From Salinisphaera hydrothermalis C41B8 (GTDB lineage Bacteria; Pseudomonadota; Gammaproteobacteria; Nevskiales; Salinisphaeraceae), in NCBI RefSeq assembly GCF_000732535.1, contig NZ_APNK01000013.1:1-64000 (forward strand): 64,000 nucleotides of DNA. The letters are read 5' to 3'. How positions within the stretch are numbered: the first letter of the stretch is position 1; the number at the start of each line of letters is the position of its first letter. Below, piece by piece: positions 2 to 14,402 of this stretch. Position numbers and translations under genes: made by a program. The notes beneath the pieces were generated by a model that was given only the letters and a program-made list of their open reading frames with translations, searched no databases and had not been told where the DNA came from.

Positions 2-544
2 ATGGCTCTTGCGAAGCAGCTTGCCACTTATCGCACTGTCCAGAAATCAGGGGCCAGTTCAGTACGCACCCCGCTTTACGAGGCGATCCGACGGATTCCC
101 AATGCCATATTGGTTCATGCATTCGTCGACTCGGCAACACTAATCGGCGGCGCGAAGCTCACCGCTTCCTGCACCGGCTCAGCGGTCTTCGAAGGCATGC
201 AGGCGGGCATTCCGGGCCTGACCTTTGCCCGCACCTGGCATTCGGACTGTCCAAGCGGCCCCTTCTGCGCCGATGCACAAAGCGTGGCCGAGACCGTACC
301 GCAGCTCCTGGCCAAGCCCACCGACGAAGTTCGCAACGACTATCAGCAATTTCTGATCGCTCATGCGCCTTGGTGGTTTCTTGGCGCCAACGACGATCGC
401 GCCGTGGCGCGTTCGGCCTTTACCCGCGAACGACTGCGCGCTTCCGTGGCCGAGGTGCTACGCAGTTTGACCATCGACGACAGCGCCGAATCCACCGGCG
501 TTCGGCTCGCTAGAGACAACACCCGCGGCGAACGCTCGGCCTAA
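2..544 (+). CDS. Capsule-type polysaccharide transferase, C-terminal part (cut by window edge)
   Basis: Only about 180 C-terminal residues are in the window and the reading frame is open to the left edge, so the first in-frame ATG need not be the start. The visible part matches the C-terminal third of the 484-residue protein at 11,992-13,446: both share an LTASC-x-GS-x-VFEG block, then GIPGLTF, TWHS and a GANDDRA tail. That fold is the capsule-polysaccharide-synthesis type, where the conserved block lies in the nucleotide-sugar-binding domain. It converges on the leftward glycosyltransferase set with only 16 bases between them. The family assignment is by pattern and the sugar transferred is unknown. 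Confidence 0.7.
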   Translation: MALAKQLATYRTVQKSGASSVRTPLYEAIRRIPNAILVHAFVDSATLIGGAKLTASCTGSAVFEGMQAGIPGLTFARTWHSDCPSGPFCADAQSVAETVPQLLAKPTDEVRNDYQQFLIAHAPWWFLGANDDRAVARSAFTRERLRASVAEVLRSLTIDDSAESTGVRLARDNTRGERSA

Positions 545-2644: not shown

Positions 2645-3748
2645 TCACGGGTGCCAATGCAGTCGGGCGTCGGCTTCGATCAGCGACAGCGCGCGCCGCC
2701 GCTCGGCGTCGAAATCATGATCGGGGGACATCGGGCGCGTGGGCTGACTGGCCGAATGGGAAGCGCCAAAATCGAAGCCGTAAATATCGAGGCGCGCGCA
2801 ATCCGAGGCCGCAAGCAAATCGATAGCCTTCATGCCGGTAGACGCAATCTTACCCAACTCGCGTGCCAGATGAACATCGCGTGCTTTGGAAAACATATGC
2901 AGCCGTCCGGAGGCGAACATCCAGGCCGGAATGTTACGCATCATCTTGGCCCGGCGACTGACCCAGACCATGCGCTGGATGCCGCGTGACTCGGCGGTTG
3001 CTCGACTGATCGGCAAGCCGGTCACCACCCAATCGGTACGGCTGCCGTGTGAATATTCCGCCACCAGAATGCCCCGGTTACAGCGCACTACGACATCGGC
3101 GGCATCGATGGCCGTCCCATAGTCGCGCTCGGCCAGCGAGACGGCATTGCCGACCAGTGCCACATGCTTACCGGCCAGTTCCCGCAACAGGCGCCGTTCC
3201 GACACAGTGCCGCGCACCAAACGCCAGAGGCGGCCAGCCAATCGCTGTCGGCGGCGCGCCCAGGTCGCTCGGCGTTTGGCTCGCCGCTGCAGATCCGCCA
3301 CCCTGGCGGCCAAGGCCGCATCAACCGGAGCGGTGACGATCACACAGTATTCGCGCGGCGTATTTTCGATCGTCTCGGCATGACCGAACACCGCGGCAAG
3401 CCGTTGGCACCACCATTCGGCGTCGTGCACGCTGGCAAATTCGTTCCTGCCACCGACCAGCGGGCCAGCCGAATAGCGGGTCGCAATGCGAAACACGCCA
3501 AACGAGGCGACCCGGAACGCGGCATCCAGGGCGCGGTCGATGGCGGCATCGTCCAACCAGTGCAGCACGCGATCGCTGGCAACGAGCGCGACGCCGGCCT
3601 CGCTATCGGCGATCCGCTCGCCATCGATTCTGGCCCGGAAACCCTGCTCGATTAGGCGCGTGGCTCCTACGGATTCTGCCACCGCGCCCACCCAGTCGGG
3701 CGCCTCGCCAAGGGCGTGCTGGTATAGAACCGGATCGGGCCTAAACAT
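2645..3748 (-). CDS. GT29 (sialyltransferase-type) protein with N-terminal methyltransferase-like domain
   Basis: Predicted 367 residues. A longer frame opens to 4048, but its first 100 codons only shadow the upstream gene; the ATG at 3748 overlaps that gene's stop by 8 bases, suggesting coupled translation. The C-terminal half carries the GT29 sialylmotifs in order: motif L at about 194-240 (VALVGNAVSL, VVRCNRG, GSRTDW), motif S at about 301-328 (ASTGMKAIDLL, IYGFDFG) and an H-x4-E pair (H344, E349) matching motif VS. These bind CMP-sialic acid in known members. The N-terminal half (VLHWLDDAAIDRAL and following) resembles a degenerate class I methyltransferase. With CMP-sugar synthesis genes 3-7 kb away, transfer of a sialic-acid-like sugar is the best inference. 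Confidence 0.78.
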   Translation of the reverse strand: MFRPDPVLYQHALGEAPDWVGAVAESVGATRLIEQGFRARIDGERIADSEAGVALVASDRVLHWLDDAAIDRALDAAFRVASFGVFRIATRYSAGPLVGGRNEFASVHDAEWWCQRLAAVFGHAETIENTPREYCVIVTAPVDAALAARVADLQRRAKRRATWARRRQRLAGRLWRLVRGTVSERRLLRELAGKHVALVGNAVSLAERDYGTAIDAADVVVRCNRGILVAEYSHGSRTDWVVTGLPISRATAESRGIQRMVWVSRRAKMMRNIPAWMFASGRLHMFSKARDVHLARELGKIASTGMKAIDLLAASDCARLDIYGFDFGASHSASQPTRPMSPDHDFDAERRRALSLIEADARLHWHP

Positions 3749-4775
3749 CTGCGATACGCGCATACAGCGCCTGGTATGCATCGGCCATACGCGCCACCGA
3801 AAAACGGGCGGCTGTGCTTTGACCCGCCGCCCCCAGAGCCCGCGCCAGCTCGGGCTCGTCCCGCAGACGGATGAGCGCGTTGAACAAAGTGTTTTCATCG
3901 CCGGGCGGAACCAACAAGCCGTTACGACCGTCGTCGACGAACTCTGGCAACCCATCGACTGCCGAGGCCACGACCGGCAAGCCCGCGCGCATCGCGTCCA
4001 AAGCGGCGCCGCCGATCCCTTCATGGCGCGATGGCAATACGAACGCATCGGCAGCAGCTAAATAGTCGCCGACGTTGTCGACGAAACCGGCGAACTCGAT
4101 GTTCGCGAGCCCACGCGCCTGGCGTTCGAAAGCCGTACGATCGCGCCCTGCGCCGGCCAGAACGAAATGCATGCCCGGCCGCTCTGAAGCGGCTCGACGC
4201 GCGACCTCGATCAAATGCGACTGGCCTTTCTGGGCATCGACGAGGGCCGCCACATTCAACACGACGAACGCATCCCCCCAACGCTTGCGCAGGGCCTGCG
4301 AACGCCCCCGATCCACTGGCAGATCGGACAGCGCACTATAGATCGTCGCCACATCGCGCTGCGCGTAATCCGCGATTTCACGCGCCACCGATCCGGCCAC
4401 ACCCACACAGGCCGCCGCATCGCGATAAATCGCCCGGGTCACGACATTCGCGCTCGGCCGCTTGCCGATCCGGCGCGTGACGATGTAAGGCGTACCTGCC
4501 ACACGCCAACGCCACCACGCCAACTGCGCCGCCCGGGTTTCGTGGGCATGCAGCACGGCCCCTCGCACACTGGTCACGCGCATCGCGAACGGCTTACGAA
4601 CGGGAACGATCTCCAGATCCGACAGATCAACCAGGCGCTCGGCGAGCGGCTGGCCCCGCCGAGCGATCAGCCTCTGGGCCACACCACGGCGCGCAAGCTC
4701 GCGAATTAACAATTCAGTCTGGCGTTCACCGCCTCGATAACCGCGCGCCAGATTGAGATGACAAATTCGACTCAT
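3741..4775 (-). CDS. Glycosyltransferase family 4
   Basis: A 344-residue GT-B protein. The N-terminus has the ARGYRGGERQTELLIREL acceptor-domain signature. The C-terminal donor domain has VLNVAALVDAQKGQ, FVLAGAG, then HEGIGGAALDAMRAGLPVV and NGLLVPPGD. The usual E-x7-E pair reads E-x7-D here, a conservative change. Its N-terminal signature is nearly the same as that in the relic at 14,399-14,760, so the two derive from one family. It lies in the leftward glycan set and its stop overlaps the start of the GT29 gene. It probably adds a sugar to lipopolysaccharide core or O-chain. Confidence 0.85.
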   Translation of the reverse strand: MSRICHLNLARGYRGGERQTELLIRELARRGVAQRLIARRGQPLAERLVDLSDLEIVPVRKPFAMRVTSVRGAVLHAHETRAAQLAWWRWRVAGTPYIVTRRIGKRPSANVVTRAIYRDAAACVGVAGSVAREIADYAQRDVATIYSALSDLPVDRGRSQALRKRWGDAFVVLNVAALVDAQKGQSHLIEVARRAASERPGMHFVLAGAGRDRTAFERQARGLANIEFAGFVDNVGDYLAAADAFVLPSRHEGIGGAALDAMRAGLPVVASAVDGLPEFVDDGRNGLLVPPGDENTLFNALIRLRDEPELARALGAAGQSTAARFSVARMADAYQALYARIADV

Positions 4776-4838
4776 GAGCCCTTCGTACGTGAGCGTCGCT
4801 TCAGCGCTTCGCGCGCCGGCTCATCTCTTAGTTCGCGC

Positions 4839-5765
4839 CTAGATCGCGCCCAGCACCATTCGAACGAGTTCGGAATGATCATCGCGTGCCAGCCCGCGAT
4901 AGGGCGCCACCTGCTGATAACCACCCGGCGGGAATAGGAAACTGGTAGGAGTCACGAATTGGAAGAACCCCACCAGGCGCGGCTGACCGCCCTCTTGTAC
5001 GCGGCTACCATAGTGGAAACAGCGGCTGGTATCGGCGAACACCGAGGTGCCCGCTACGCCGGTGATCTCATGCTGTGGATCACGACCAACCACACGATTG
5101 GCAACCTCATCGTTCACGCGATAGCCCTTGCGGCCATAGGTGTATCCGATCGACGACCGCAGCTTATCCGAGGCTTCAGCTTCCATCAGCGTCAGAGGGC
5201 CGCTCGCGATATCCACATCGCTGGCGTAGATGAAAATCTTGAGCTGAGCCGTATCGTCCCAGTCGCAGTGATAGAGCTGGCTGGCGTGGTGCTGCGACGG
5301 GGAATTATCGGATTTCCAGACGTCGATCTTGGCGAGAACCGGGACCACACCGAGATAACCCGCGATGGCCGCAATCACGTCTTCGCGCAGGGCAAAGCGT
5401 AAAAACGGCGACTCGTCGGTAAGATGGGCAACGTCTAGATATCCCTGCTGCAAGAAATCCTTGTTGCCCGGGGCGACCTCGGCTTCACGTGCGGCGATAA
5501 TCTCGCGCACGGTTCCGACGATGTCATCGACTTCTGCGAACGTGCCGGGGGAAAACACGGCGAACCCGTTCTCGAGCGGAATCTCATAGCCGCCGCCGGA
5601 GGCCGCCAGCTCTTTGGCCAAGCGTTGACGTGCATCCAGCGATGCCCCCTGCTTGGCGCCGAGGCGCGCGGCGTACCATTGGCGGCGCCGGGGCGTGCTT
5701 TTAACGAAATAGTTCCACAACGCCTTGTTGTGACCCTGTTTGTTGGTACGAAACAGATTTTTCAT
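4839..5765 (-). CDS. Phytanoyl-CoA dioxygenase (PhyH)-like Fe(II)/2-oxoglutarate oxygenase
   Basis: A 308-residue predicted non-haem iron oxygenase. The facial triad is visible as H166-C-D168 (YHCDWDD) and H251 (CFHYGSR), with R255 four residues on as the expected 2-oxoglutarate anchor. The family hydroxylates small substrates with O2 and 2-oxoglutarate. Lying inside a glycosyltransferase operon, it probably modifies a sugar or lipid part of the surface glycan; that is inferred from context only. ATG start at 5765. Confidence 0.78.
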   Translation of the reverse strand: MKNLFRTNKQGHNKALWNYFVKSTPRRRQWYAARLGAKQGASLDARQRLAKELAASGGGYEIPLENGFAVFSPGTFAEVDDIVGTVREIIAAREAEVAPGNKDFLQQGYLDVAHLTDESPFLRFALREDVIAAIAGYLGVVPVLAKIDVWKSDNSPSQHHASQLYHCDWDDTAQLKIFIYASDVDIASGPLTLMEAEASDKLRSSIGYTYGRKGYRVNDEVANRVVGRDPQHEITGVAGTSVFADTSRCFHYGSRVQEGGQPRLVGFFQFVTPTSFLFPPGGYQQVAPYRGLARDDHSELVRMVLGAI

Positions 5766-5822
5766 ATCACGGAGCCGCGACGATGCCGTTGCGAACCATT
5801 ATGTGCCTGAACATGGCTGTCG

Positions 5823-5828
5823 ATTATA
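5823..5828 (-). promoter_or_regulatory. Possible sigma70 -10 box for the PhyH/glycosyltransferase genes
   Basis: A perfect TATAAT on the minus strand lies 57 bases upstream of the ATG at 5765, in the 117-base gap between two leftward genes. The -35 region is weak (TCGTAA at 16-base spacing). It could be an internal promoter separating the 5883-6725 gene from the rest of the set. Confidence 0.4.
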
Positions 5829-5882
5829 GAAGATCGACCGTAGGTTACGAGGGCGCCAGCCCCTGACTTAGAAGGCGCACGT

Positions 5883-6725
5883 TCAGGTTCGCCAACCCAG
5901 CGCCATCGCCGCGCGCCGTAAATTCTGACCAAAACGCTTGCCCGGCGGATCGGAAAAACGATGGGCGTCATACTCGAATGTGCCGGAATGGTCATCGTAG
6001 TAGCAGCTCCGATGGTCAACAATCTGGCTCTGCCAGTCTGCGGCAGCGACCCGCCAGTGATGATCGGGTTTACGCTGGCCGCGTTCCGCCGCGACCTGTC
6101 GTATCGCCAGTCGACGCTTCAACTGCTCCGGATCTCGGGCTCGAAAATGCTGCATGATGATTCGCTCGCGCGCTAAAGGCCCCCGCGGCGTTGGCCAATG
6201 CGCCCTGCCGCACCATTTCAGTTTCGGATGATGCCGCATGAAGCGCAGTTCTTCGTAGGCCGCACGATAATAGCGTCGCCGCTCTTGGATCGGGCGCTGG
6301 CGATCGGCCAGCGTCTCCTGATTGGCCTGCCAGGCCGCCCAATCGATATCGGTGTATTCGTAGAACAGGTTGATCGCGTTCACCCGGCACTCCAAAGGCG
6401 ATAGAGCTGCCAGGAAGGCTTTCGGATCGTGTGGATAGAACTCGTCCCCGTCGAGCCGGCACCACCAGTCTTTGGTGGTTGCTTCGTCAAACAAGCGGTA
6501 GAACGGGATCATGCGCAGATCGTTATGAAATGCCCCGGTATAGCGGCCTATGAATTCGATGCGGTTCGGATGGGCGGCCGCGACCGCTTCGACCCTGGCC
6601 ACGGTATCGTCGTCGCTATCGTTATCGAGCACGGCGATACGGTCACACCAGGCAAGTGCCTCGGTCAGTGTCTGGCTTACGATATCGCCTTCGTCCTTCA
6701 ACACGGTCAGACCGAAAATCTTCAT
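5883..6725 (-). CDS. Glycosyltransferase family 2
   Basis: A 280-residue GT-A transferase. It opens with MKIFGLTVLKDEGDIV, followed by AVLDNDSDDDTV and a metal-binding D92-G-D94 (RLDGDEF), the usual nucleotide-sugar/metal motif. There is no membrane segment. It is divergent from the oxidoreductase/NeuB operon with 93 bases between the starts, so the two transcription units probably share a control region. The sugar transferred is unknown. Confidence 0.82.
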   Translation of the reverse strand: MKIFGLTVLKDEGDIVSQTLTEALAWCDRIAVLDNDSDDDTVARVEAVAAAHPNRIEFIGRYTGAFHNDLRMIPFYRLFDEATTKDWWCRLDGDEFYPHDPKAFLAALSPLECRVNAINLFYEYTDIDWAAWQANQETLADRQRPIQERRRYYRAAYEELRFMRHHPKLKWCGRAHWPTPRGPLARERIIMQHFRARDPEQLKRRLAIRQVAAERGQRKPDHHWRVAAADWQSQIVDHRSCYYDDHSGTFEYDAHRFSDPPGKRFGQNLRRAAMALGWRT

Positions 6726-6818
6726 CGTGCCCTTTGTGTGTAGTGGATGGCCTGACCGCCAGTCGCCGCGGCTGCTATTCTCGTTCGCCTTCGCGCTGCT
6801 CGCGAAGTTCCGTTCACC

Positions 6819-7931
6819 ATGCTACCCCACGCGACCATGGACAAAGTCAAGATCTACGGTGCCGGTTCGATCGGCAACCATATGGCCCACGCGGCGCGCT
6901 CGCTCGGCTGGTCAGTCGCGATCTGCGACCCCGATCCGGCGGCACTCGAGCGCACACGGCACGATATCTACCCCAGCCGCTATGGCCAGTGGGACGAGGC
7001 AATCGAGCTGTACGATCCCGCCGATGCGCCGACTGGCCAACACGACCTCATCATCATCGGCACACCGCCGGATGCGCATATGCCCCTGGCGCTTGCCGCC
7101 ATCGACGAGGGCCCGAAGGCGATTCTGATCGAAAAGCCGGCCAGCACGCCGGAATCCGAACTCGATCGCCAGGTGTTCGAACGTGCCCGTGCAGCGGGGG
7201 TGCGCGTGTTCGTCGGCTATGATCACGTCGTCGGCCTTGCGACCCAACGCTTTGATGAACTGGCGGGTACCGACACGGTCGGAACTGTCACCACGCTGGA
7301 TGTGGAATTCCGCGAGTACTGGGGCGGCATCTTTGCGGCCCACCCCTGGCTGGACGGCCCCGCCGACAGCTATCTCGGCTACTGGCGACGCGGCGGCGGC
7401 GCGCTGGGCGAACACTCGCATGCGCTCAATCTCTGGCAGCACATGGCCCACGTGGTGGGCGCCGGGCGCGTGGTCGAAGTCTCGGCGCTGCTCGATATTG
7501 TCACCGACGGCGCCGCGGAATACGACCGGCTGGCGGCGTTGCACTTGACCACCGAACACGGGCTGCGCGGGCGCGTGGTTCAGGATGTGGTCACCCAGCC
7601 CACGCGTAAATGGGCCCGACTGCAAGGCAGCACCGGTTACGTCGAATGGGCGGCCGGATATGCCCCGGGGGCCGATGCCGTCATCCACGGCTCGGGGAAT
7701 TCGGCTCCCGAAACAGAGAAGTTCACCAAGAGCCGGCCCGACGATTTCATTGCCGAGCTCGATCACATCAATACACATGTGCAGGATGGATCGACCTCGC
7801 CGCTGGAACTGTCGCGCGGGCTGGATACCATGATGGTGATTGCGGCGGCACACCGCTCGCACCGGGAGCAACGGGTCGTGCGTCTCGATGAAGCCGAACC
7901 CTACGACATTCGCGGCATGGCCGGCGCCTGA
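6819..7931 (+). CDS. Gfo/Idh/MocA-family NAD(P)-dependent oxidoreductase
   Basis: A 370-residue protein with an N-terminal Rossmann fold (IYGAGSIGNH), then LIIIGTPPDAH and ILIEKPAS, the family's EKP motif with the conserved lysine. The C-terminal half is the mixed sheet domain. An ATG at 6837 would also serve as start. First gene of the nonulosonate-type operon, 35 bases before the NeuB-like gene. Family members oxidise or reduce sugars and nucleotide sugars; here it probably prepares or edits the aldose that the synthase condenses with phosphoenolpyruvate. That role is inferred from position. Confidence 0.85.
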   Translation: MLPHATMDKVKIYGAGSIGNHMAHAARSLGWSVAICDPDPAALERTRHDIYPSRYGQWDEAIELYDPADAPTGQHDLIIIGTPPDAHMPLALAAIDEGPKAILIEKPASTPESELDRQVFERARAAGVRVFVGYDHVVGLATQRFDELAGTDTVGTVTTLDVEFREYWGGIFAAHPWLDGPADSYLGYWRRGGGALGEHSHALNLWQHMAHVVGAGRVVEVSALLDIVTDGAAEYDRLAALHLTTEHGLRGRVVQDVVTQPTRKWARLQGSTGYVEWAAGYAPGADAVIHGSGNSAPETEKFTKSRPDDFIAELDHINTHVQDGSTSPLELSRGLDTMMVIAAAHRSHREQRVVRLDEAEPYDIRGMAGA

Positions 7932-7966
7932 GCGCGTCACCGCAGAGCAACAAGAGGAGCGCCCGC

Positions 7967-9595
7967 ATGCGTCAGTCCTATGATTTCAATGACCTGTTCG
8001 TGTTCGAGATGGCCAACAACCATCAAGGCGACGTCGAGCATGGCCTGAGGATCATTCGCGAAATGGGCGCCGCAGCCGCCGAATACGGGGTCCGCGCGGC
8101 GATCAAATTCCAGTTCCGGCAACTCGATACGTTCATCCATCCGGACTATCGCGAGGCCAGCGAACCCAAGCATATCCAGCGGTTTTTATCGACCGAGTTG
8201 TCGCGCGACGAATTCCAGACGATGTTCGACGCGGCCCGCGCCCAGAATCTGCTGACCATGTGCACGCCGTTCGATGAAGCGTCGGTGGACGTGATCGAGG
8301 AGATGGGTTTCGACATCATCAAGGTCGCCAGTGCCTCGTGCCAGGACTGGCCGTTGCTCGAACGGATTTCCGAGGCCAACCTCCCGGTGATCGTCTCCAC
8401 GGGCGGCCAGGATATTGCGGCCATCGACAACATCTCGAGCTTCTGCCATCACCGCGGTATCGATCATGCGCTGATGCATTGCGTGGCGTTGTATCCCACC
8501 CCGGACGAGCACTGCCAACTCAACCAGATCGATCGCCTGCGCGAACGTTATCGCGATACCACGATCGGCTGGTCGACCCACGAGGATCCGGGCGACACCG
8601 ATGTCGTGATCGCCGCCTATGCCAAGGGCGCGCGCATGTTCGAAAAACATGTCGGTGTCGTCGATGGGCCGGTCACTCAACTTAATGCCTATTCCGCCGA
8701 CCCGGATCAGGTCAGGGCCTGGCTGGCCGCTTACAAGAAAGCCGTGGCCCTATGCGGCGACGATACCCGCGAAACCCGGCATACCGAGGCCGAGCGCGAT
8801 GCGCTGGCAGCGCTGCAACGCGGCGTCTATGCCCGCGAACCGCTGGCGCCGGGACAGCAATTAACGATGGATGATGTCTTTTTCGCCATGCCGCTGCAGG
8901 ATGGCCAACTGACCTCGGGCCGCTTCAAACCGGGCACGACGGTCAAACAAGCCGTGGAATCCAATGGCGCGGTGGCCTTCAGCAACGTCGATATTCCCAG
9001 CGACCCGGACCGCAAGGTCATTCAGTCATCGCTGCATCAGATCAAGGCGATGCTCAACGAGGCGCGTATACCGCTGAACTCGGACTTCAAGGTGGAATAC
9101 TCGCATCACCACGGCGTCGAGAATTTTCGCGAAGTTGGCGCGGTTCTCATCGACGTGGTCAATCGCAAGTACTGCAAGAAGATCGTCGCGCAGTTGCCCG
9201 GCCAATATCACCCGGCCCACTTTCACAAGCTCAAGGACGAGACCTTCATCATTGTCCACGGCACCCTGCATCTGGAGGTCGACGGCCATCACAAAGTGCT
9301 CTCGCCGGGCGAAACCGCGGTCGTACAACCCGGGGTATGGCATCACTTCTGGACCGAGACCGGCGTGATTTTCGAAGAAATCTCGTCGACACATAAAAAC
9401 GACGATTCGTTCTACAAGGACAAGCGCATCAACCGCATGCCACGCAGCGCACGCAAAACGATCGTCGACCACTGGGGCCGCTTCACCCTGCGTGACGAGG
9501 ACGAGGCGGAAAACGAGATCTGGCCGCCGCAGCGGCGCGCCGCTGAAGACGAAGCATCCGCCGAGGCCGAGCCCAACTCGGCAATCGACGGCTAA
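7967..9595 (+). CDS. NeuB-type sialic acid synthase fused to SAF and cupin domains
   Basis: A 542-residue protein with three domains. Residues 10-260 are the NeuB barrel (FEMANNHQGD, IKFQF, MCTPFDEASVD, STGG, EKH), which condenses an aldose with phosphoenolpyruvate. Residues 285-345 are the SAF (antifreeze-like) domain that caps the active site. Residues 370-475 are a cupin with metal-site pattern H418-x-H420, E425 and H459. A 50-residue acidic tail follows. Classical NeuB ends after SAF at about 345 residues, so the cupin is extra; it resembles sugar-isomerase-type cupins and might supply the aldose. AGAGGAG stands upstream of the ATG. The stop abuts the phosphatase gene. Confidence 0.88.
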   Translation: MRQSYDFNDLFVFEMANNHQGDVEHGLRIIREMGAAAAEYGVRAAIKFQFRQLDTFIHPDYREASEPKHIQRFLSTELSRDEFQTMFDAARAQNLLTMCTPFDEASVDVIEEMGFDIIKVASASCQDWPLLERISEANLPVIVSTGGQDIAAIDNISSFCHHRGIDHALMHCVALYPTPDEHCQLNQIDRLRERYRDTTIGWSTHEDPGDTDVVIAAYAKGARMFEKHVGVVDGPVTQLNAYSADPDQVRAWLAAYKKAVALCGDDTRETRHTEAERDALAALQRGVYAREPLAPGQQLTMDDVFFAMPLQDGQLTSGRFKPGTTVKQAVESNGAVAFSNVDIPSDPDRKVIQSSLHQIKAMLNEARIPLNSDFKVEYSHHHGVENFREVGAVLIDVVNRKYCKKIVAQLPGQYHPAHFHKLKDETFIIVHGTLHLEVDGHHKVLSPGETAVVQPGVWHHFWTETGVIFEEISSTHKNDDSFYKDKRINRMPRSARKTIVDHWGRFTLRDEDEAENEIWPPQRRAAEDEASAEAEPNSAIDG

Positions 9596-10291
9596 TTGGT
9601 GGCGGCTTTGATCAAGGCCGTGGTCTTTGATTTCGACGGTACGCTAGTGCTGTCGAATCAAATCAAATACGACGCGTTTCAGCAGACGGCCGAAGCCCAC
9701 GGCCTGGACCCGGAGCGCGTGATGGCGCTGCGCCACACGCATCCGGGGGCCAACCGGCACCAAATCTTTGCCGAGCTGTCGCGCCAATTACGGGCCGAGG
9801 GGTTCGATCACATCCCGGACGGCCCGACTTTCGTTGCCACCTATGCTGACATCGTGACCCGTGAGGTGACGCGCTGCGACTGGGTGCCGGGCGCCGAGGC
9901 CACGCTGGACCGACTGGCCGCACGGGGTCTCGCATTGTTCATCAATTCCGCCACCCCAAGTGACGGTCTGCTCCCGATCGTCGAAAAGCGCGGCATGCAC
10001 ACACGCTTTCAGGCGGTTCTGGGCGGCCCGGACAGCAAAATCGACAACCTGAATCGCATTGCACGACAGACGGCTCTCGAACCGACCGCCATGGTCATGA
10101 TCGGCGATGGCGAAGACGATCGCATAGCGGCGGCGTCGTTTGGTTGTCATTTCATCGGCGTTGAGCTCGAGACCGAGGACCACGGCCGCCCGGCTCACCG
10201 CCTAACGGTAAGACCCACGCATCTCGTGCCGGACCTGAGTGGTGTACCCGAGCTTATCGATGCGATCGTAGCAGACCGGAGCACGCCGTAA
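9596..10291 (+). CDS. HAD-superfamily phosphatase
   Basis: A 231-residue HAD hydrolase. Motif I is FDFDGTLV with the nucleophile Asp, motif II is INSATPS, and motif IV is MIGDGEDD. The start is TTG or the next codon GTG, immediately after the synthase stop, so translation is probably coupled. Between a NeuB-type synthase and a CMP-sugar synthetase, the natural reading is dephosphorylation of a nonulosonate phosphate, as in the KDN/Neu5Ac 9-phosphate route. The substrate is inferred. Confidence 0.82.
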   Translation: MVAALIKAVVFDFDGTLVLSNQIKYDAFQQTAEAHGLDPERVMALRHTHPGANRHQIFAELSRQLRAEGFDHIPDGPTFVATYADIVTREVTRCDWVPGAEATLDRLAARGLALFINSATPSDGLLPIVEKRGMHTRFQAVLGGPDSKIDNLNRIARQTALEPTAMVMIGDGEDDRIAAASFGCHFIGVELETEDHGRPAHRLTVRPTHLVPDLSGVPELIDAIVADRSTP

Positions 10292-10293
10292 TC

Positions 10294-10995
10294 ATGTACG
10301 CCGACTACAAGATTCTGGCGGTCGTACCCGCGCGCGGCGGTAGCAAGGGCGTACCGCTGAAAAACATCCAGCCGATCCAGGGCATCCCGCTGGTGGCCCG
10401 CGTCGGCCATCTGATATCAGAGTTGCCGGAGATCGACCGCGCGGTCGTTTCCACCGACCACGACGAAATCGCCCGAATCGCCGAGGCATCCGGCCTGGCC
10501 GCCGATTGGCGTCGGCCACCGGCGCTGTCCGGCGACCGGATTGGCGATCTCGACGTGCTCACGCATGCCTTGAACGAGACCGAACAACGCGATGGGCAAC
10601 GCTACGACATCGTGCTCATGCTCCAGCCGACATCGCCCATGCGCACCGCCGCGCACGTTCGCGACACCTACCGCAAACTGATCGACGAAGGGCGGGATGC
10701 AGTCTGGACCGTCTCCGAAACCGATTCGAAATACCATCCACGCAAACAACTGACGCTAACGGACGACCAACTCGGCTATTACAGCCAGGACGGCGGCCAG
10801 ATCATCGCGCGCCAACAGCTGGATGCGCTCTATCACCGCAACGGTGCCGCCTATGCTTTCACTCGCGACTGTCTCGTCGAGCAACGCAACATCATGGGCG
10901 CGAACACGGCCGGCTTGATCACCGAGGACATGGTGAGCATCGATACGCCCTTCGATTTCCGGCTCGTCGAGTTCTTGCTCGCCGACAAGCATTAG
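10294..10995 (+). CDS. neuA: CMP-sialic acid synthetase-type cytidylyltransferase
   Basis: A 233-residue enzyme that activates a keto-deoxy sugar acid with CTP. It has the P-loop-like ARGGSKGVPLKN at about 10-21, LQPTSPMR, NGAAYAF and the metal-binding SIDTPFD. Length matches the NeuA/PseF/LegF group. It starts 2 bases after the phosphatase stop and is the last gene of the operon. A weak stem (11,017-11,038) with five Ts follows. Product would be the CMP-sugar used by the GT29-domain protein at 2,645-3,748. Which sugar is made cannot be read from sequence. Confidence 0.87.
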   Translation: MYADYKILAVVPARGGSKGVPLKNIQPIQGIPLVARVGHLISELPEIDRAVVSTDHDEIARIAEASGLAADWRRPPALSGDRIGDLDVLTHALNETEQRDGQRYDIVLMLQPTSPMRTAAHVRDTYRKLIDEGRDAVWTVSETDSKYHPRKQLTLTDDQLGYYSQDGGQIIARQQLDALYHRNGAAYAFTRDCLVEQRNIMGANTAGLITEDMVSIDTPFDFRLVEFLLADKH

Positions 10996-11137: not shown

Positions 11138-11539
11138 ATGACCTCGAAGATCGTATCCGACGAACTCTGGGCCATTGTGGAGCCGCTATTGCCGGAGCCT
11201 GAAGTGAGCGCGCGCGGCGGTCGCCCGCCGATTTCCAATCGGGCGGCGCTGACCGGCATTCTGTTCGTACTGCGCTCGGGCATTCCTTGGCACATGCTGC
11301 CCCAGGAGATGGGCTGCGGCTCAGGTGTGACGTGCTGGCGTCGACTCCGGGACTGGCAACAGGCGGGGGTCTGGGATCGGCTGCACGAGGTGTTGTTGCA
11401 GCAGCTGCATCAGGCTGATCGGCTGGACTGGTCCCGCGCCTGCGTCGACAGCGCCAGCCTGGCGGCTAAAAAGGGGGATCGGCCATCGGTCCCAACCCGG
11501 TCGACCGCGGCCGCCCTGGGAGCAAACGACACCTCGTGA
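11138..11539 (+). CDS. IS5-family transposase, upstream frame (orfA)
   Basis: 133 codons. Residues 1-110 are the DUF4096-type N-terminal domain ([40 protein letters not shown]). ACVDSASL holds the first catalytic Asp of the DDE triad. After AAKKG the frame loses IS5 similarity, while the -1 frame takes it up. The full enzyme therefore needs a ribosomal frameshift. Confidence 0.85.
11470..11476 (+). other. Putative -1 ribosomal frameshift site
   Basis: The heptamer A_AAG_GGG is in the zero frame of orfA. Slipping back one base gives [20 protein letters not shown], the expected IS5 continuation, with no gap or stop. This placement explains the split transposase without assuming a mutation. Confidence 0.7.
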
Positions 11540-11940
11540 CGAATCGGTATGGCCGACCTCTGGCCGTCCAGCTGTCCGGGGCCAACCGAAACGATTGCCA
11601 GCTATTGGCGTCGTTGTTGGATCGCATACCACCCATTCAAGGGCGACGGGGTCGCCCACACTATCGACCTCGGAAGCTGCATGCCGACAAGGCCTACGAT
11701 CACCGGCATTGCCGTCGCGCGTGCCACCGACGCAGCATTCGGCCCCGTATCGCGCGGCGGGGTGTGGAAGCTAGTCAAAGGCTCGGACGCCATCGCTGGG
11801 TTGTCGAGCGTACGTTCGCCTGGTTGAACGGATTCAGACGGTTAGCTATCCGGTACGAGCGTCGGGCTGACATTCACTACGCCTTGACGGTTCTCGGATG
11901 CGCGATGATCTGCTTCAACCACTTAAAACATGGGTTTTGA
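11536..11940 (+). CDS. IS5-family transposase, downstream frame (orfB)
   Basis: Contains the rest of the DDE domain: LHADKAYDH with the second Asp, and [21 protein letters not shown] with the catalytic Glu and the Y-(2)-R-(3)-E-like signature of IS4/IS5 enzymes. In this frame sequence similarity extends upstream to the slippery site at 11,470. The listed start is a GTG inside orfA; expression is more likely by frameshift than from that codon. Confidence 0.85.
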
Positions 11941-11991: not shown

Positions 11992-13446
11992 TCATGTTTT
12001 CGGACTTAGGAGGGCCTGAACTTCGGTACGCATGGACGCCACCAGAACGTTACGATCTCGCGCTGATAATTGCGCCGCCCGATCATCGTTGGCTCCGACA
12101 AACCAATGCCGGCTTTCGTCGCGGATAAACTGCGCGAGGTCCGCTCGCACCTGCTCGGGTGTTTTTGCCGCGAGCTCGTTCATCATTCCGGGCAATGCCT
12201 TCATATCGCCAATCGCTGGCGCACTGGCACAGGCCGAGTGCCACGTCGGCACGAAAGTCAGCCCCGGGATGCCGTGCTTGAGCCCTTCGAATACGGAAGA
12301 CCCATTGCAGGAAGCCGTAAGCTCGGCTCCGGCAATCAACCCATCCGCGGGTGCGAATGCATCCATGAGCACGGCATTGCCGAGTTCGGCAATACCCTGA
12401 TACAGCGGCTGGCGCCCGTAATGCAGACAACGCAGATCCGGCCGGCGATCGCCCAACTGACGCGGATGCTCCTTGACCACCAAGATCCAGTCACGCGGCA
12501 TCGCCCGCGCCAGCGCTGTAATAGCTCGGAGTTGATCGTGGTAAAAGCCCGCCTCCGGCACCGTGGTGCGTTCGGGTTGGTAATGCAGGGCGAAATAGAT
12601 ATAGGGGGCGGACGGGGCGTCTCGCCGGGCATGCCGAGTCAAATACGATAGATCGGCTCGCCGTTCGCGATCACGCCGCAACGCATAGCGATACAAACGC
12701 CACCAGGGTTGGCGGAAATAGTGATGATGCCGATAACCATGCCGCGCCCGATAATACCGGCGTATCAGCTTCCACTTGAGCCCGAGCCCCATGGAGCGAT
12801 ACGCCGCGGATTCCGCCCGGCGGTTGATTTCATGCGACCGCTTGAGCCGCCCCGACACTTCGCCCAGCGTGTCGAGCCATGCATCTGCCGACAAGCCTGC
12901 CGCCGCCGGCGGCAACGGCGCACGTCCGCAAACCAGGTCGGTATCGAAAAACATACCGTCCGGCAGCTGCGTTCGTTTAAAGATATAAGCCGGCACCTTC
13001 AGGCGCCGACATACGTGAAAGAACACGATATGCCAAGGGAAGTGCGGCGTATGGGCGAACCAAACCACAAGAGTCGACGCCCGCTCCGAAATCCACGCCT
13101 CGAGTCCACCCACTAACGCCCAGAAATACCGCTCGGCCTCGCGTGCCGGCAACGGGTCGAGAAACACTCGGTCCAACGCTCGCGCAAACTGCCGCCATGC
13201 CTCGGCATATTCTATTTCCATGACCGCATCGACGACCTCGTTGGCACCCGCGGTGTGCGGCACCTCGTCGACGCGTTGATAGGGTTGCCAATCGAAATAT
13301 GCGAAGTCGTGGCCCCGACCCGCCGTATCAGCCCGCCCTGAACGGCCACCGATCAGAACATCGTGTTGCTGGGCAAACCCGAGCAACATCTCCTGCATGA
13401 TGGGGTAATCGGCGAAATCGGCACCAAACAGCAGCTTGCGTTGCAT
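11992..13446 (-). CDS. Capsule-type polysaccharide transferase, full length
   Basis: A 484-residue protein. A longer frame to 13,632 only shadows hldD; MQRKLLFGADFADYP at 13,446 begins 2 bases after the hldD stop and is the better start. The C-terminal domain has YIYFALHYQPERTTVPEAG, ILVVKEHPRQLG, LTASCNGSSVFEG and GIPGLTF, the Capsule_synth-type donor-binding pattern. The last 170 residues are paralogous to the left-edge gene at 2-544, which lies in the opposite orientation. Operon with hldD suggests a role in lipopolysaccharide or capsule assembly. Donor and acceptor are unknown. Confidence 0.75.
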   Translation of the reverse strand: MQRKLLFGADFADYPIMQEMLLGFAQQHDVLIGGRSGRADTAGRGHDFAYFDWQPYQRVDEVPHTAGANEVVDAVMEIEYAEAWRQFARALDRVFLDPLPAREAERYFWALVGGLEAWISERASTLVVWFAHTPHFPWHIVFFHVCRRLKVPAYIFKRTQLPDGMFFDTDLVCGRAPLPPAAAGLSADAWLDTLGEVSGRLKRSHEINRRAESAAYRSMGLGLKWKLIRRYYRARHGYRHHHYFRQPWWRLYRYALRRDRERRADLSYLTRHARRDAPSAPYIYFALHYQPERTTVPEAGFYHDQLRAITALARAMPRDWILVVKEHPRQLGDRRPDLRCLHYGRQPLYQGIAELGNAVLMDAFAPADGLIAGAELTASCNGSSVFEGLKHGIPGLTFVPTWHSACASAPAIGDMKALPGMMNELAAKTPEQVRADLAQFIRDESRHWFVGANDDRAAQLSARDRNVLVASMRTEVQALLSPKT

Positions 13447-13448
13447 GC

Positions 13449-14402
13449 TCACGCAGTACGCCGAGCGGCCAACCAATCGAGATAACGCGGCACCCCCTCT
13501 TCTACCGGCATGAACGTGTTCGGGTAGCCCGCCTGCTGCAAGGCGGCCATATCGGCCTCGGTGAAACTCTGATAACGCCCAACCAGCGACTTCGGGAAAT
13601 CGATATAGCGTTTCTCGCCGCGGCCATGCCAAGCGATCACGGCGTCGGCCACATCGTTGAACGTCTGGGAGCGGCCGGTGCCGCAGTTATAGATGCCCGA
13701 CACCTGCGGGTTGTCGAGCAACCACAGATTCACCGCGACCACGTCGTCGACATGGATGAAATCGCGCCGCTGTTCGCCACTGCCATAGCCGTCCGAACCC
13801 GCGAACAGGCGGCACTCGCCATCCTCCGCGATTTGGTTCGAAAAGTGCCGTGCCACGCTCGCCATTCGACCCTTGTGGCCTTCGCGCGGGCCATAGACGT
13901 TGAAATAACGCAGCCCGACGACCTGCGAGCGGCGCGCTCGTCCTTGTGCCCGTACGTACTGGTCGAAGGCAAACTTGGAAAACGCATACATATTGAGCGG
14001 TTTCTCGGCGTTGCGGCGTTCGACAAAATCCGGGCCCATGCCGTAGACCGACGCCGACGACGCATAAAGAAACGCCACCCGATGGCGCTGGCACCAGGCA
14101 TGCAGCGTTTTCGAATACGTGAAGTTGCGCGCCATGACATAGCGCCCGTCCCATTCCGTGGTGTCGGAACAAGCACCTTCGTGGAATACCGCATCGATGC
14201 CGCCGGGCATGTCGTCGGCCGCCATGCGGCGTTCGAGTTCGTCGTATTCCAGGTAATCGGCAAAGTCGAGATCGGCCAGGTTCAGACATTTATGGCCATC
14301 GGCTAGGTCATCGACGATCAGGATGTCGCGAACGCCACGGGCGTTGAGCCCAGCCACGATATTGCTGCCAATGAAGCCGGCAGCGCCGGTCACAATGATC
14401 AT
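13449..14402 (-). CDS. hldD: ADP-L-glycero-D-manno-heptose 6-epimerase
   Basis: A 317-residue SDR-fold epimerase converting ADP-D-glycero- to ADP-L-glycero-manno-heptose for the lipopolysaccharide inner core. It begins MIIVTGAAGFIGSN (NADP-binding GxxGxxG), then FHEGACSDTTEWDG typical of HldD, the catalytic Y-x3-K (YAFSK), RYFNVYGPREGHKGRMASV and the C-terminal heptose-binding region. The longer frame to 14,624 is not real: the ATG at 14,402 overlaps the TGA of the glycosyltransferase relic upstream. Downstream it is followed after 2 bases by the capsule-type gene. Confidence 0.93.
   Translation of the reverse strand: MIIVTGAAGFIGSNIVAGLNARGVRDILIVDDLADGHKCLNLADLDFADYLEYDELERRMAADDMPGGIDAVFHEGACSDTTEWDGRYVMARNFTYSKTLHAWCQRHRVAFLYASSASVYGMGPDFVERRNAEKPLNMYAFSKFAFDQYVRAQGRARRSQVVGLRYFNVYGPREGHKGRMASVARHFSNQIAEDGECRLFAGSDGYGSGEQRRDFIHVDDVVAVNLWLLDNPQVSGIYNCGTGRSQTFNDVADAVIAWHGRGEKRYIDFPKSLVGRYQSFTEADMAALQQAGYPNTFMPVEEGVPRYLDWLAARRTA

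Follow-up and report, generated by a model that had tools for sequence, protein, structure and literature searches.

A NeuB-cupin fusion cassette in Salinisphaera hydrothermalis and diverse other bacteria, and a putative route to a nitrogen-free keto-deoxy sugar acid

The cassette and its locus

We examined a stretch of 64,000 nucleotides (the window) from Salinisphaera hydrothermalis C41B8 (NZ_APNK01000013.1, assembly GCF_000732535.1; genome 99.92% complete) and focus on four adjacent plus-strand genes within it, called the cassette here. These encode a Gfo/Idh/MocA-type oxidoreductase (Gfo), a NeuB-type synthase fused to a cupin domain, a HAD phosphatase and a cytidine monophosphate (CMP)-sugar synthetase, and are separated by 35, 0 and 2 bases (Table 1). 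Beside them, glycosyltransferase genes run divergently on the minus strand, including one with a GT29 (sialyltransferase) domain. Family models recovered all of the elements that the initial annotation had named at this locus, namely the Gfo, NeuB, fused cupin, HAD, CMP-sugar synthetase and GT29 components. The same locus is present in Salinisphaera japonica YTM-1, in which the NeuB-cupin protein is 84% identical.

Table 1. Features of the cassette and adjoining genes, with positions in the window and Pfam matches (E-values)
Feature	Position	Strand	Pfam match
Gfo/Idh/MocA-type NAD(P)-dependent oxidoreductase, 370 aa, cassette gene 1	6819..7931	+	PF01408 6.6e-11, PF02894
NeuB-type synthase-cupin ketol-isomerase fusion (isomerase activity predicted), 542 aa	7967..9595	+	PF03102 1.9e-44, PF07883 3.4e-11, PF07385 (D-lyxose isomerase) 1.3e-9
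Synthase part of fusion: NeuB TIM barrel and C-terminal SAF/antifreeze-like region, residues ~8-345	7988..9001	+	
Cupin part of fusion: D-lyxose/D-mannose-isomerase-like domain, residues ~348-509	9008..9493	+	
HAD-IA type phosphatase, proposed sugar-acid-phosphate phosphatase	9596..10291	+	PF13419 4.7e-19
CMP-sugar synthetase (cytidylyltransferase, PseF/NeuA-like)	10294..10995	+	PF02348 5e-17
GT29 (sialyltransferase)-domain protein	2645..3748 (approx.)	-	PF00777 3.7e-10
GT4 glycosyltransferase, neighbour	3741..4775	-	PF13692 4.4e-36
Uncharacterised protein, PhyH-type dioxygenase look by eye	4839..5765	-	none
GT2-type glycosyltransferase, neighbour	5883..6725	-	PF13704 1.7e-8

Conservation of the cassette across phyla

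A scan of one-genome-per-species data with two short peptide patterns returned 276 places encoding a relative of the NeuB-cupin protein. Partner genes were counted in the best 80 of these loci, which were picked for closeness to the query, so that the percentages do not extend to remoter relatives. Searches by tblastn at 1e-4, a threshold at which divergent HAD proteins will be missed, found the same Gfo in 76 loci, the cytidylyltransferase in 69 and the HAD phosphatase in 51. The initial annotation had proposed looking for the same gene order in other genomes, and this order recurs across many phyla: Gfo, NeuB, HAD and CMP synthetase follow one another on a single strand in 38 of the 45 loci having all four genes clearly placed. 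By record title, the loci belong to Alphaproteobacteria, Gammaproteobacteria, Desulfuromonadales, Nitrospirota, Verrucomicrobiota, Planctomycetota, Acidobacteriota, Gemmatimonadales, Nitriliruptoraceae, Bacteroidetes and bacteria of the candidate phyla radiation (CPR); many are metagenome bins, and individual assignments may be wrong. Among isolates, Salinisphaera japonica YTM-1, Thalassospira sp. HF15 and Niveispirillum irakense DSM 11586 carry the cassette.

Two further patterns tie the genes together. One Gemmatimonadales bin (L110) encodes NeuB, cupin and HAD as a single protein of 760 residues. Of 398 Pseudomonadota genomes, three encode a Gfo of this subfamily (E up to 1e-40), and exactly the same three have a Gfo-linked NeuB-cupin gene. 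The conserved order, the fusion and the co-occurrence of Gfo argue for a joint function rather than a chance neighbourhood. No gene for nitrogen-containing sugars was a regular neighbour, with an aminotransferase gene near the cassette in eight of the 80 loci and a PseB-like gene in six. We found no published account of the cassette in a full-text literature search, which left out most subscription papers, and no characterised counterpart of its genes. Five loci (L123, L124, L062, L049 and L061) carry the cassette beside a second NeuB gene, sometimes with a NeuC-like gene, and may make two kinds of nonulosonate side by side.

The NeuB synthase domain

The synthase part belongs to the NeuB family, scoring over the cut-off of PF03102, and its residues K119, Y176, S203, H205, E226 and H228 are common to 17 ordinary NeuB proteins. 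It missed the curated NCBIfam cut-offs for N-acetylneuraminate synthase (TIGR03569, 144 versus 400 bits) and for PseI (TIGR03586, 127 versus 340 bits). The AlphaFold model of the fusion has a mean predicted local distance difference test (pLDDT) score of 90. The closest solved synthase is chain 3g8r_B of Chromobacterium violaceum (334 residues aligned, VIA Z 38.1, root-mean-square deviation (rmsd) 1.7, 43-44% identity), and the sequence profile of the synthase part gave 2.3e-124.

In meningococcal NeuB, Arg314 of the antifreeze-like domain positions the N-acetyl group of the substrate, and its replacement by Ala inactivates the enzyme (PMC6795526). The equivalent residue is M308 in S. hydrothermalis, and each of the 54 members of the cassette group has M, F, I or V there. 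A hydrophobic residue at this site argues against an N-acetyl sugar as the substrate. All 17 ordinary NeuB-type proteins are polar at this position (R, N, S or Q). The Chromobacterium protein, deposited as a "putative spore coat polysaccharide biosynthesis protein E", also lacks an Arg314 equivalent; it differs in that the crystallised chain has no cupin, and its entry title assigns no function. In a tree of NeuB domains, for which the comparison set was drawn from Pseudomonadota only, the cassette group and a second NeuB-cupin subfamily were split from the 17 ordinary NeuB-type proteins by a long branch with full support.

This second subfamily, B (L035-L043, e.g. L040:9701-11209), is ~45% identical and has no Gfo partner. 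Its genes mostly adjoin a gene for a thiamine pyrophosphate-dependent enzyme, and L040 also has nucleotidyltransferase, DegT-type and dehydratase genes. The position of Arg314 is occupied by I in seven subfamily B members.

The cupin domain

A profile built from 36 cupin domains matched the D-lyxose ketol-isomerase YdaE of Bacillus subtilis (2y0o) and the Thermofilum enzyme TsLI (7nzo) over the whole domain length. The cupin model superposed on 2y0o (TMt 0.71, rmsd 1.8) and also on 7nzp, 7nzq and 3mpb, which are fructose- or mannose-bound structures. In the Thermofilum enzyme, the residues contacting sugar or Mn are K62, H75, H77, K86, E88, H143, E156 and D163 (PMC8378251), and their equivalents by profile alignment are K405, H418, H420, K423, E425, H459, E471 and N478. 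The first seven, which comprise the Mn site (H418, H420, E425 and H459) and three further active-site residues (K405, K423 and E471), do not vary among the 54 sequences compared, which share 48-83% identity; the eighth, D163 in Thermofilum, is N478 in S. hydrothermalis. The domain thus has the cupin fold, the HxH...E...H metal site and seven of the eight sugar- or Mn-contacting residues of a D-lyxose/D-mannose isomerase, and it missed the NCBIfam LyManIsomGneg cut-off (30 versus 350 bits). It shares fold, metal site and active-site residues with YdaE, TsLI and Escherichia coli Z5688 (3kmh). Those are stand-alone enzymes of sugar metabolism, and such a domain as part of NeuB is not described in the literature searched.

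With such a conserved active site, the fused domain very probably acts on a ketose and an aldose with the configuration of mannose or lyxose, converting one into the other. This agrees with the initial proposal that the cupin supplies an aldose to the synthase. Alternatively, the cupin may lack catalytic activity and regulate the synthase by sensing sugar. Many cupins are not enzymes (PMC8378251), and subfamily B tolerates loss of the first metal histidine (H418), which is Gln in five of its six proteins with a cupin. Within the cassette group, however, all four metal ligands and the three further active-site residues have been kept without change at the divergence given above, and we consider a purely sensing role unlikely.

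The oxidoreductase, phosphatase and CMP-sugar synthetase

The Gfo protein has the Rossmann domain, C-terminal domain and EKP lysine of the Gfo/Idh/MocA family. The GAGSIG nucleotide-binding motif, K106 of the EKP motif and E198-H199-x-H201 are invariant or nearly so across 51 sequences, and the E-H-S-H stretch is unusual as well as conserved. The cassette Gfo is a subfamily of its own. A profile of three sequences found no close solved relative under 1e-8, and a profile of 51 sequences matched only general Gfo relatives among solved structures, at ~1e-9. Structure comparison with the Gfo model (pLDDT 95.6) gave tied matches to enzymes of many activities, including levoglucosan dehydrogenase, WlbA and RgNanOx, an enzyme acting on sialic acid, and so does not point to one reaction. 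Its substrate is probably new.

In the HAD protein, the motifs DxD, S/T, K and DD are conserved (51 sequences). The cytidylyltransferase matched the PseF model (2.9e-33, under its cut-off), and its ARGGSKG..KN motif is conserved across 66 sequences. Synthase, phosphatase and CMP synthetase stand in a single unit, as expected of a pathway to CMP-activated keto-deoxy-nonulosonic acid (Kdn).

Other sugar routes in the genome

The usual genome markers of nonulosonic acids are NeuC, PseB/LegB and their partners. The S. hydrothermalis genome encodes one NeuB protein, and in it we found neither NeuC nor NanE. Its only Epimerase_2 protein is WecB (TIGR00236 3e-93, over cut-off), with the NeuC model far under its cut-off, and this assignment rules WecB out as a NeuC encoded away from the locus. 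Among the four best of six Polysacc_synt_2 matches, no protein scored over the cut-off for PseB or LegB, the latter being far under; these four are a dTDP-glucose-dehydratase/GalE-like protein, RmlB, GalE and HpnA. An AGE-fold protein was rejected as a supply of N-acetylmannosamine (ManNAc), as it is closest to D-mannose isomerase/YihS. No NeuC, NanE or AGE source of ManNAc or its 6-phosphate was thus identified. The initial annotation had noted that NeuC, PseB and LegB are missing at the locus, and had named a pathway of this kind elsewhere in the genome as the observation that would speak against its proposal; by family models, the absence extends to the genome.

One clear DegT aminotransferase is encoded elsewhere in the genome than the cassette. 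KdsA and KdsB are both present, and we rejected the cassette as a replacement for the synthesis of keto-deoxy-octulosonate (Kdo) on this basis.

Proposed pathway and alternatives

Gene content, gene order, fusion, conserved active sites and the missing competing routes are properties of the sequences themselves. With moderate confidence, we interpret the cassette as a self-contained route to a Kdn-like keto-deoxy sugar acid that is free of nitrogen and activated with CMP. A nitrogen-free product is probable, and a Kdn backbone proper is possible but less secure. These views are in line with the initial suggestion of a CMP-activated, possibly non-acetylated acid, given the hydrophobic residue at the Arg314 site in every group member and the lack of a regular nitrogen-sugar neighbour.

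The individual reactions, substrates and product, including the Gfo step, are predicted from sequence as follows. The cupin would isomerise a ketose, free or phosphorylated, to the 2-epimeric aldose of the mannose type; fructose-6-phosphate is the likeliest substrate and fructose the alternative. The NeuB domain on the same chain would condense this aldose with phosphoenolpyruvate (PEP) to a 2-keto-3-deoxy-nonulosonate or its 9-phosphate, the HAD enzyme would take off the phosphate, and the cytidylyltransferase would form the CMP sugar. A transferase, of the BFO_1060 type in most loci and perhaps of the GT29 type in Salinisphaera, would then pass the sugar to a surface glycan. The Gfo protein may alter the oxidation state or configuration at one carbon, either before the condensation or on the product, in which case the final sugar would perhaps be an epimer of Kdn or an oxidised Kdn instead of Kdn.

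Two characterised systems bear on this scheme. The conversion of mannose-6-phosphate and PEP to Kdn-9-phosphate, Kdn and CMP-Kdn is established (PMC6200933), and the CMP-Kdn pathway of Bacteroides thetaiotaomicron and Prymnesium parvum resembles the cassette, by function, in three of four steps: NeuB-type PEP condensation, phosphatase and cytidylyltransferase (PMC6200933). The phosphatase in the cassette favours a phosphorylated route like that of these organisms. The cassette differs in that its synthase carries a ketol-isomerase-like domain, has a near-constant Gfo partner and falls in a clade separate from the ordinary NeuB proteins compared. In Serratia marcescens KL1/KL2, a NeuB with a fused COG1082 isomerase domain, together with NeuA, gives KDN and Neu5Ac at a ratio of ~20:1 (~5% Neu5Ac) (PMC9000132). 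That system shares with the cassette a NeuB-isomerase fusion, an adjoining NeuA and the lack of a reported NeuC. However, its fused domain is a xylose-isomerase-like barrel rather than a cupin, and neuA and neuB alone are named as sialic acid genes, with no phosphatase or Gfo (PMC9000132). Two unrelated isomerase domains fused to NeuB point in the same direction. Two other genomes encode fusions of the Serratia KDN type with the architecture NeuB-SAF-AP_endonuc_2 (L019:499-2754 and L031:544-2469), one of which has an extra N-terminal CBS domain; both group with ordinary NeuB proteins in the tree.

The initial annotation described the route as so far undefined. The mannose-6-phosphate scheme and the Serratia fusion reduce the force of that description, and what stands of it is the Gfo step, which has no assigned role. 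Since no other partner is retained as constantly as Gfo, the pathway may end in something other than plain Kdn. We raise, only tentatively, the stronger possibility of an undescribed, phylum-crossing CMP-nonulosonate route. In it, one bifunctional enzyme would isomerise a ketose phosphate from central metabolism and condense the resulting aldose with PEP, and a dedicated Gfo would make a keto-deoxy acid new for bacteria, such as a Kdn epimer or oxidised Kdn.

Several points weigh against a Kdn-type pathway. A plain Kdn route requires no oxidoreductase, yet Gfo is the partner most often retained. D-lyxose is the preferred sugar of TsLI, with mannose turnover below 2% (PMC8378251), so a pentose substrate is possible, and the fructose-6-phosphate version presupposes that a lyxose-isomerase-like cupin would accept a phosphorylated sugar. 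Other sources of mannose or mannose-6-phosphate in the genome (a type II phosphomannose isomerase and a protein of the YihS/D-mannose-isomerase type) would make a dedicated isomerase redundant. Finally, Arg314 is also absent from some ordinary NeuB proteins, which have N, S or Q.

The pentose option leads to a Kdo-like octulosonate, in which the cupin would convert a pentulose (xylulose or its 5-phosphate) to a D-lyxose-type aldose, NeuB would condense this with PEP to an eight-carbon acid, and the HAD protein and cytidylyltransferase would mirror KdsC and KdsB. The nearest isomerases of the cupin are indeed D-lyxose isomerases, and the gene set follows the same logic as KdsD-KdsA-KdsC-KdsB. 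However, the host already has KdsA and KdsB, and the synthase is a NeuB-type protein that has a SAF region and lies structurally far from KdsA. In addition, characterised lyxose isomerases except TsLI are reported to accept D-mannose also (PMC8378251), and the Serratia fusion yields a nine-carbon acid. We regard an octulosonate product as unlikely.

Ordinary sialic acid synthesis, from ManNAc-6-phosphate through Neu5Ac-9-phosphate and N-acetylneuraminic acid (Neu5Ac) to CMP-Neu5Ac, with the cupin and Gfo modifying supply or decorating the product, is improbable to a greater degree. In its favour, the human pathway likewise runs through a synthase, a phosphatase and a cytidylyltransferase, and the NeuB model is the top-scoring NCBIfam family, though under its cut-off; against this, the genome lacks NeuC and NanE, the arginine that holds the N-acetyl group is missing group-wide, and the long, fully supported branch separates the group from ordinary NeuB proteins. 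We give equally little credence to an amino nonulosonate of the pseudaminic or legionaminic acid type, for which genes elsewhere would encode the first steps, while Gfo and cupin would tailor the sugar or stand in for early enzymes. This reading can draw on PseF as the closest family of the synthetase, on Gfo genes found in certain Aeromonas pse/neuC islands (PMC7874193), and on the one DegT aminotransferase and the RmlB-type dehydratases of the genome. Against it, none of the four best Polysacc_synt_2 proteins passes a PseB/LegB cut-off, and both aminotransferase and PseB-like genes are scarce near the cassette.

Transferases and neighbouring genes

The GT29 domain scored 40 bits against a PF00777 cut-off of 23 bits. 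The best solved match of the protein is mammalian ST3Gal1, to which stretches of the L- and S-motifs align weakly (E 0.007). The initial annotation was right about the domain, but the frame it gave (2645-4048) extends into the GT4 gene; homology to the S. japonica gene (L046:2641-3750, protein 66% identical) places the gene at ~2645-3748. It had also counted the GT29 gene as part of the set; we rejected it as a cassette member, since tblastn matches among the 80 loci were limited to S. japonica.

A different transferase recurs in the wider group. A glycosyltransferase of ~460 residues lies near the cassette in 56 of the 80 loci (clusters c6, c10 and c18). All tested members of c6 and c10, which are related to each other by profile, match the NCBIfam BFO_1060 family below its cut-off, and an RPHP motif occurs in 12 of 12 c10 members and nine of 16 c6 members. 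We take the BFO_1060 family to be named for a Tannerella nonulosonic acid (NulO) transferase. Transferases of the BFO_1060 and GT29 types are both expected to use CMP-activated keto-deoxy acids, which fits the last enzyme of the cassette. The link to Tannerella is supported by two motifs, HP and D/E-D/E-G (PMC6388019), which many but not all BFO_1060-type members carry. HP, which RPHP matches, is described for sialyltransferases of bacteria and for the NulO transferases of Tannerella (PMC6388019). Among the Salinisphaera genes examined, no BFO_1060-type member was recognisable, and the GT29 protein is the natural candidate for the transferase there.

Other genes around the cassette were less informative. 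The protein encoded at 4839-5765 had no Pfam match even at E 1, and relatives of it lie near the cassette in six to nine of the 80 loci. Directly 3' of the cassette, an IS4/IS5-type transposase is encoded in two overlapping frames (11138-11940, plus strand), the pattern expected of a frameshifted insertion-sequence transposase. The ends of the glycan island are related frames: the gene cut at the window start (2-544, plus strand) ends like the C-terminus of the gene at 11992-13632 (minus strand), and the two have the motif LTASC.GS.VFEG in common. The gene at 11992-13632 matched no Pfam or NCBIfam family, and we rejected it as a hidden BFO_1060-type transferase when profile comparison showed no relation.

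Implications

Every enzyme family in the cassette is already known, as is the Kdn scheme; the fused-isomerase cassette itself is widespread and apparently undescribed in the literature searched. If our interpretation is correct, annotations would understate how common nitrogen-free sugars resembling sialic acid are among environmental bacteria, given a cassette that spans Proteobacteria to CPR bacteria and has no need of NeuC or PseB/LegB. The cassette would also offer an isomerase and synthase on one chain, together with a Gfo enzyme whose substrate is probably new.

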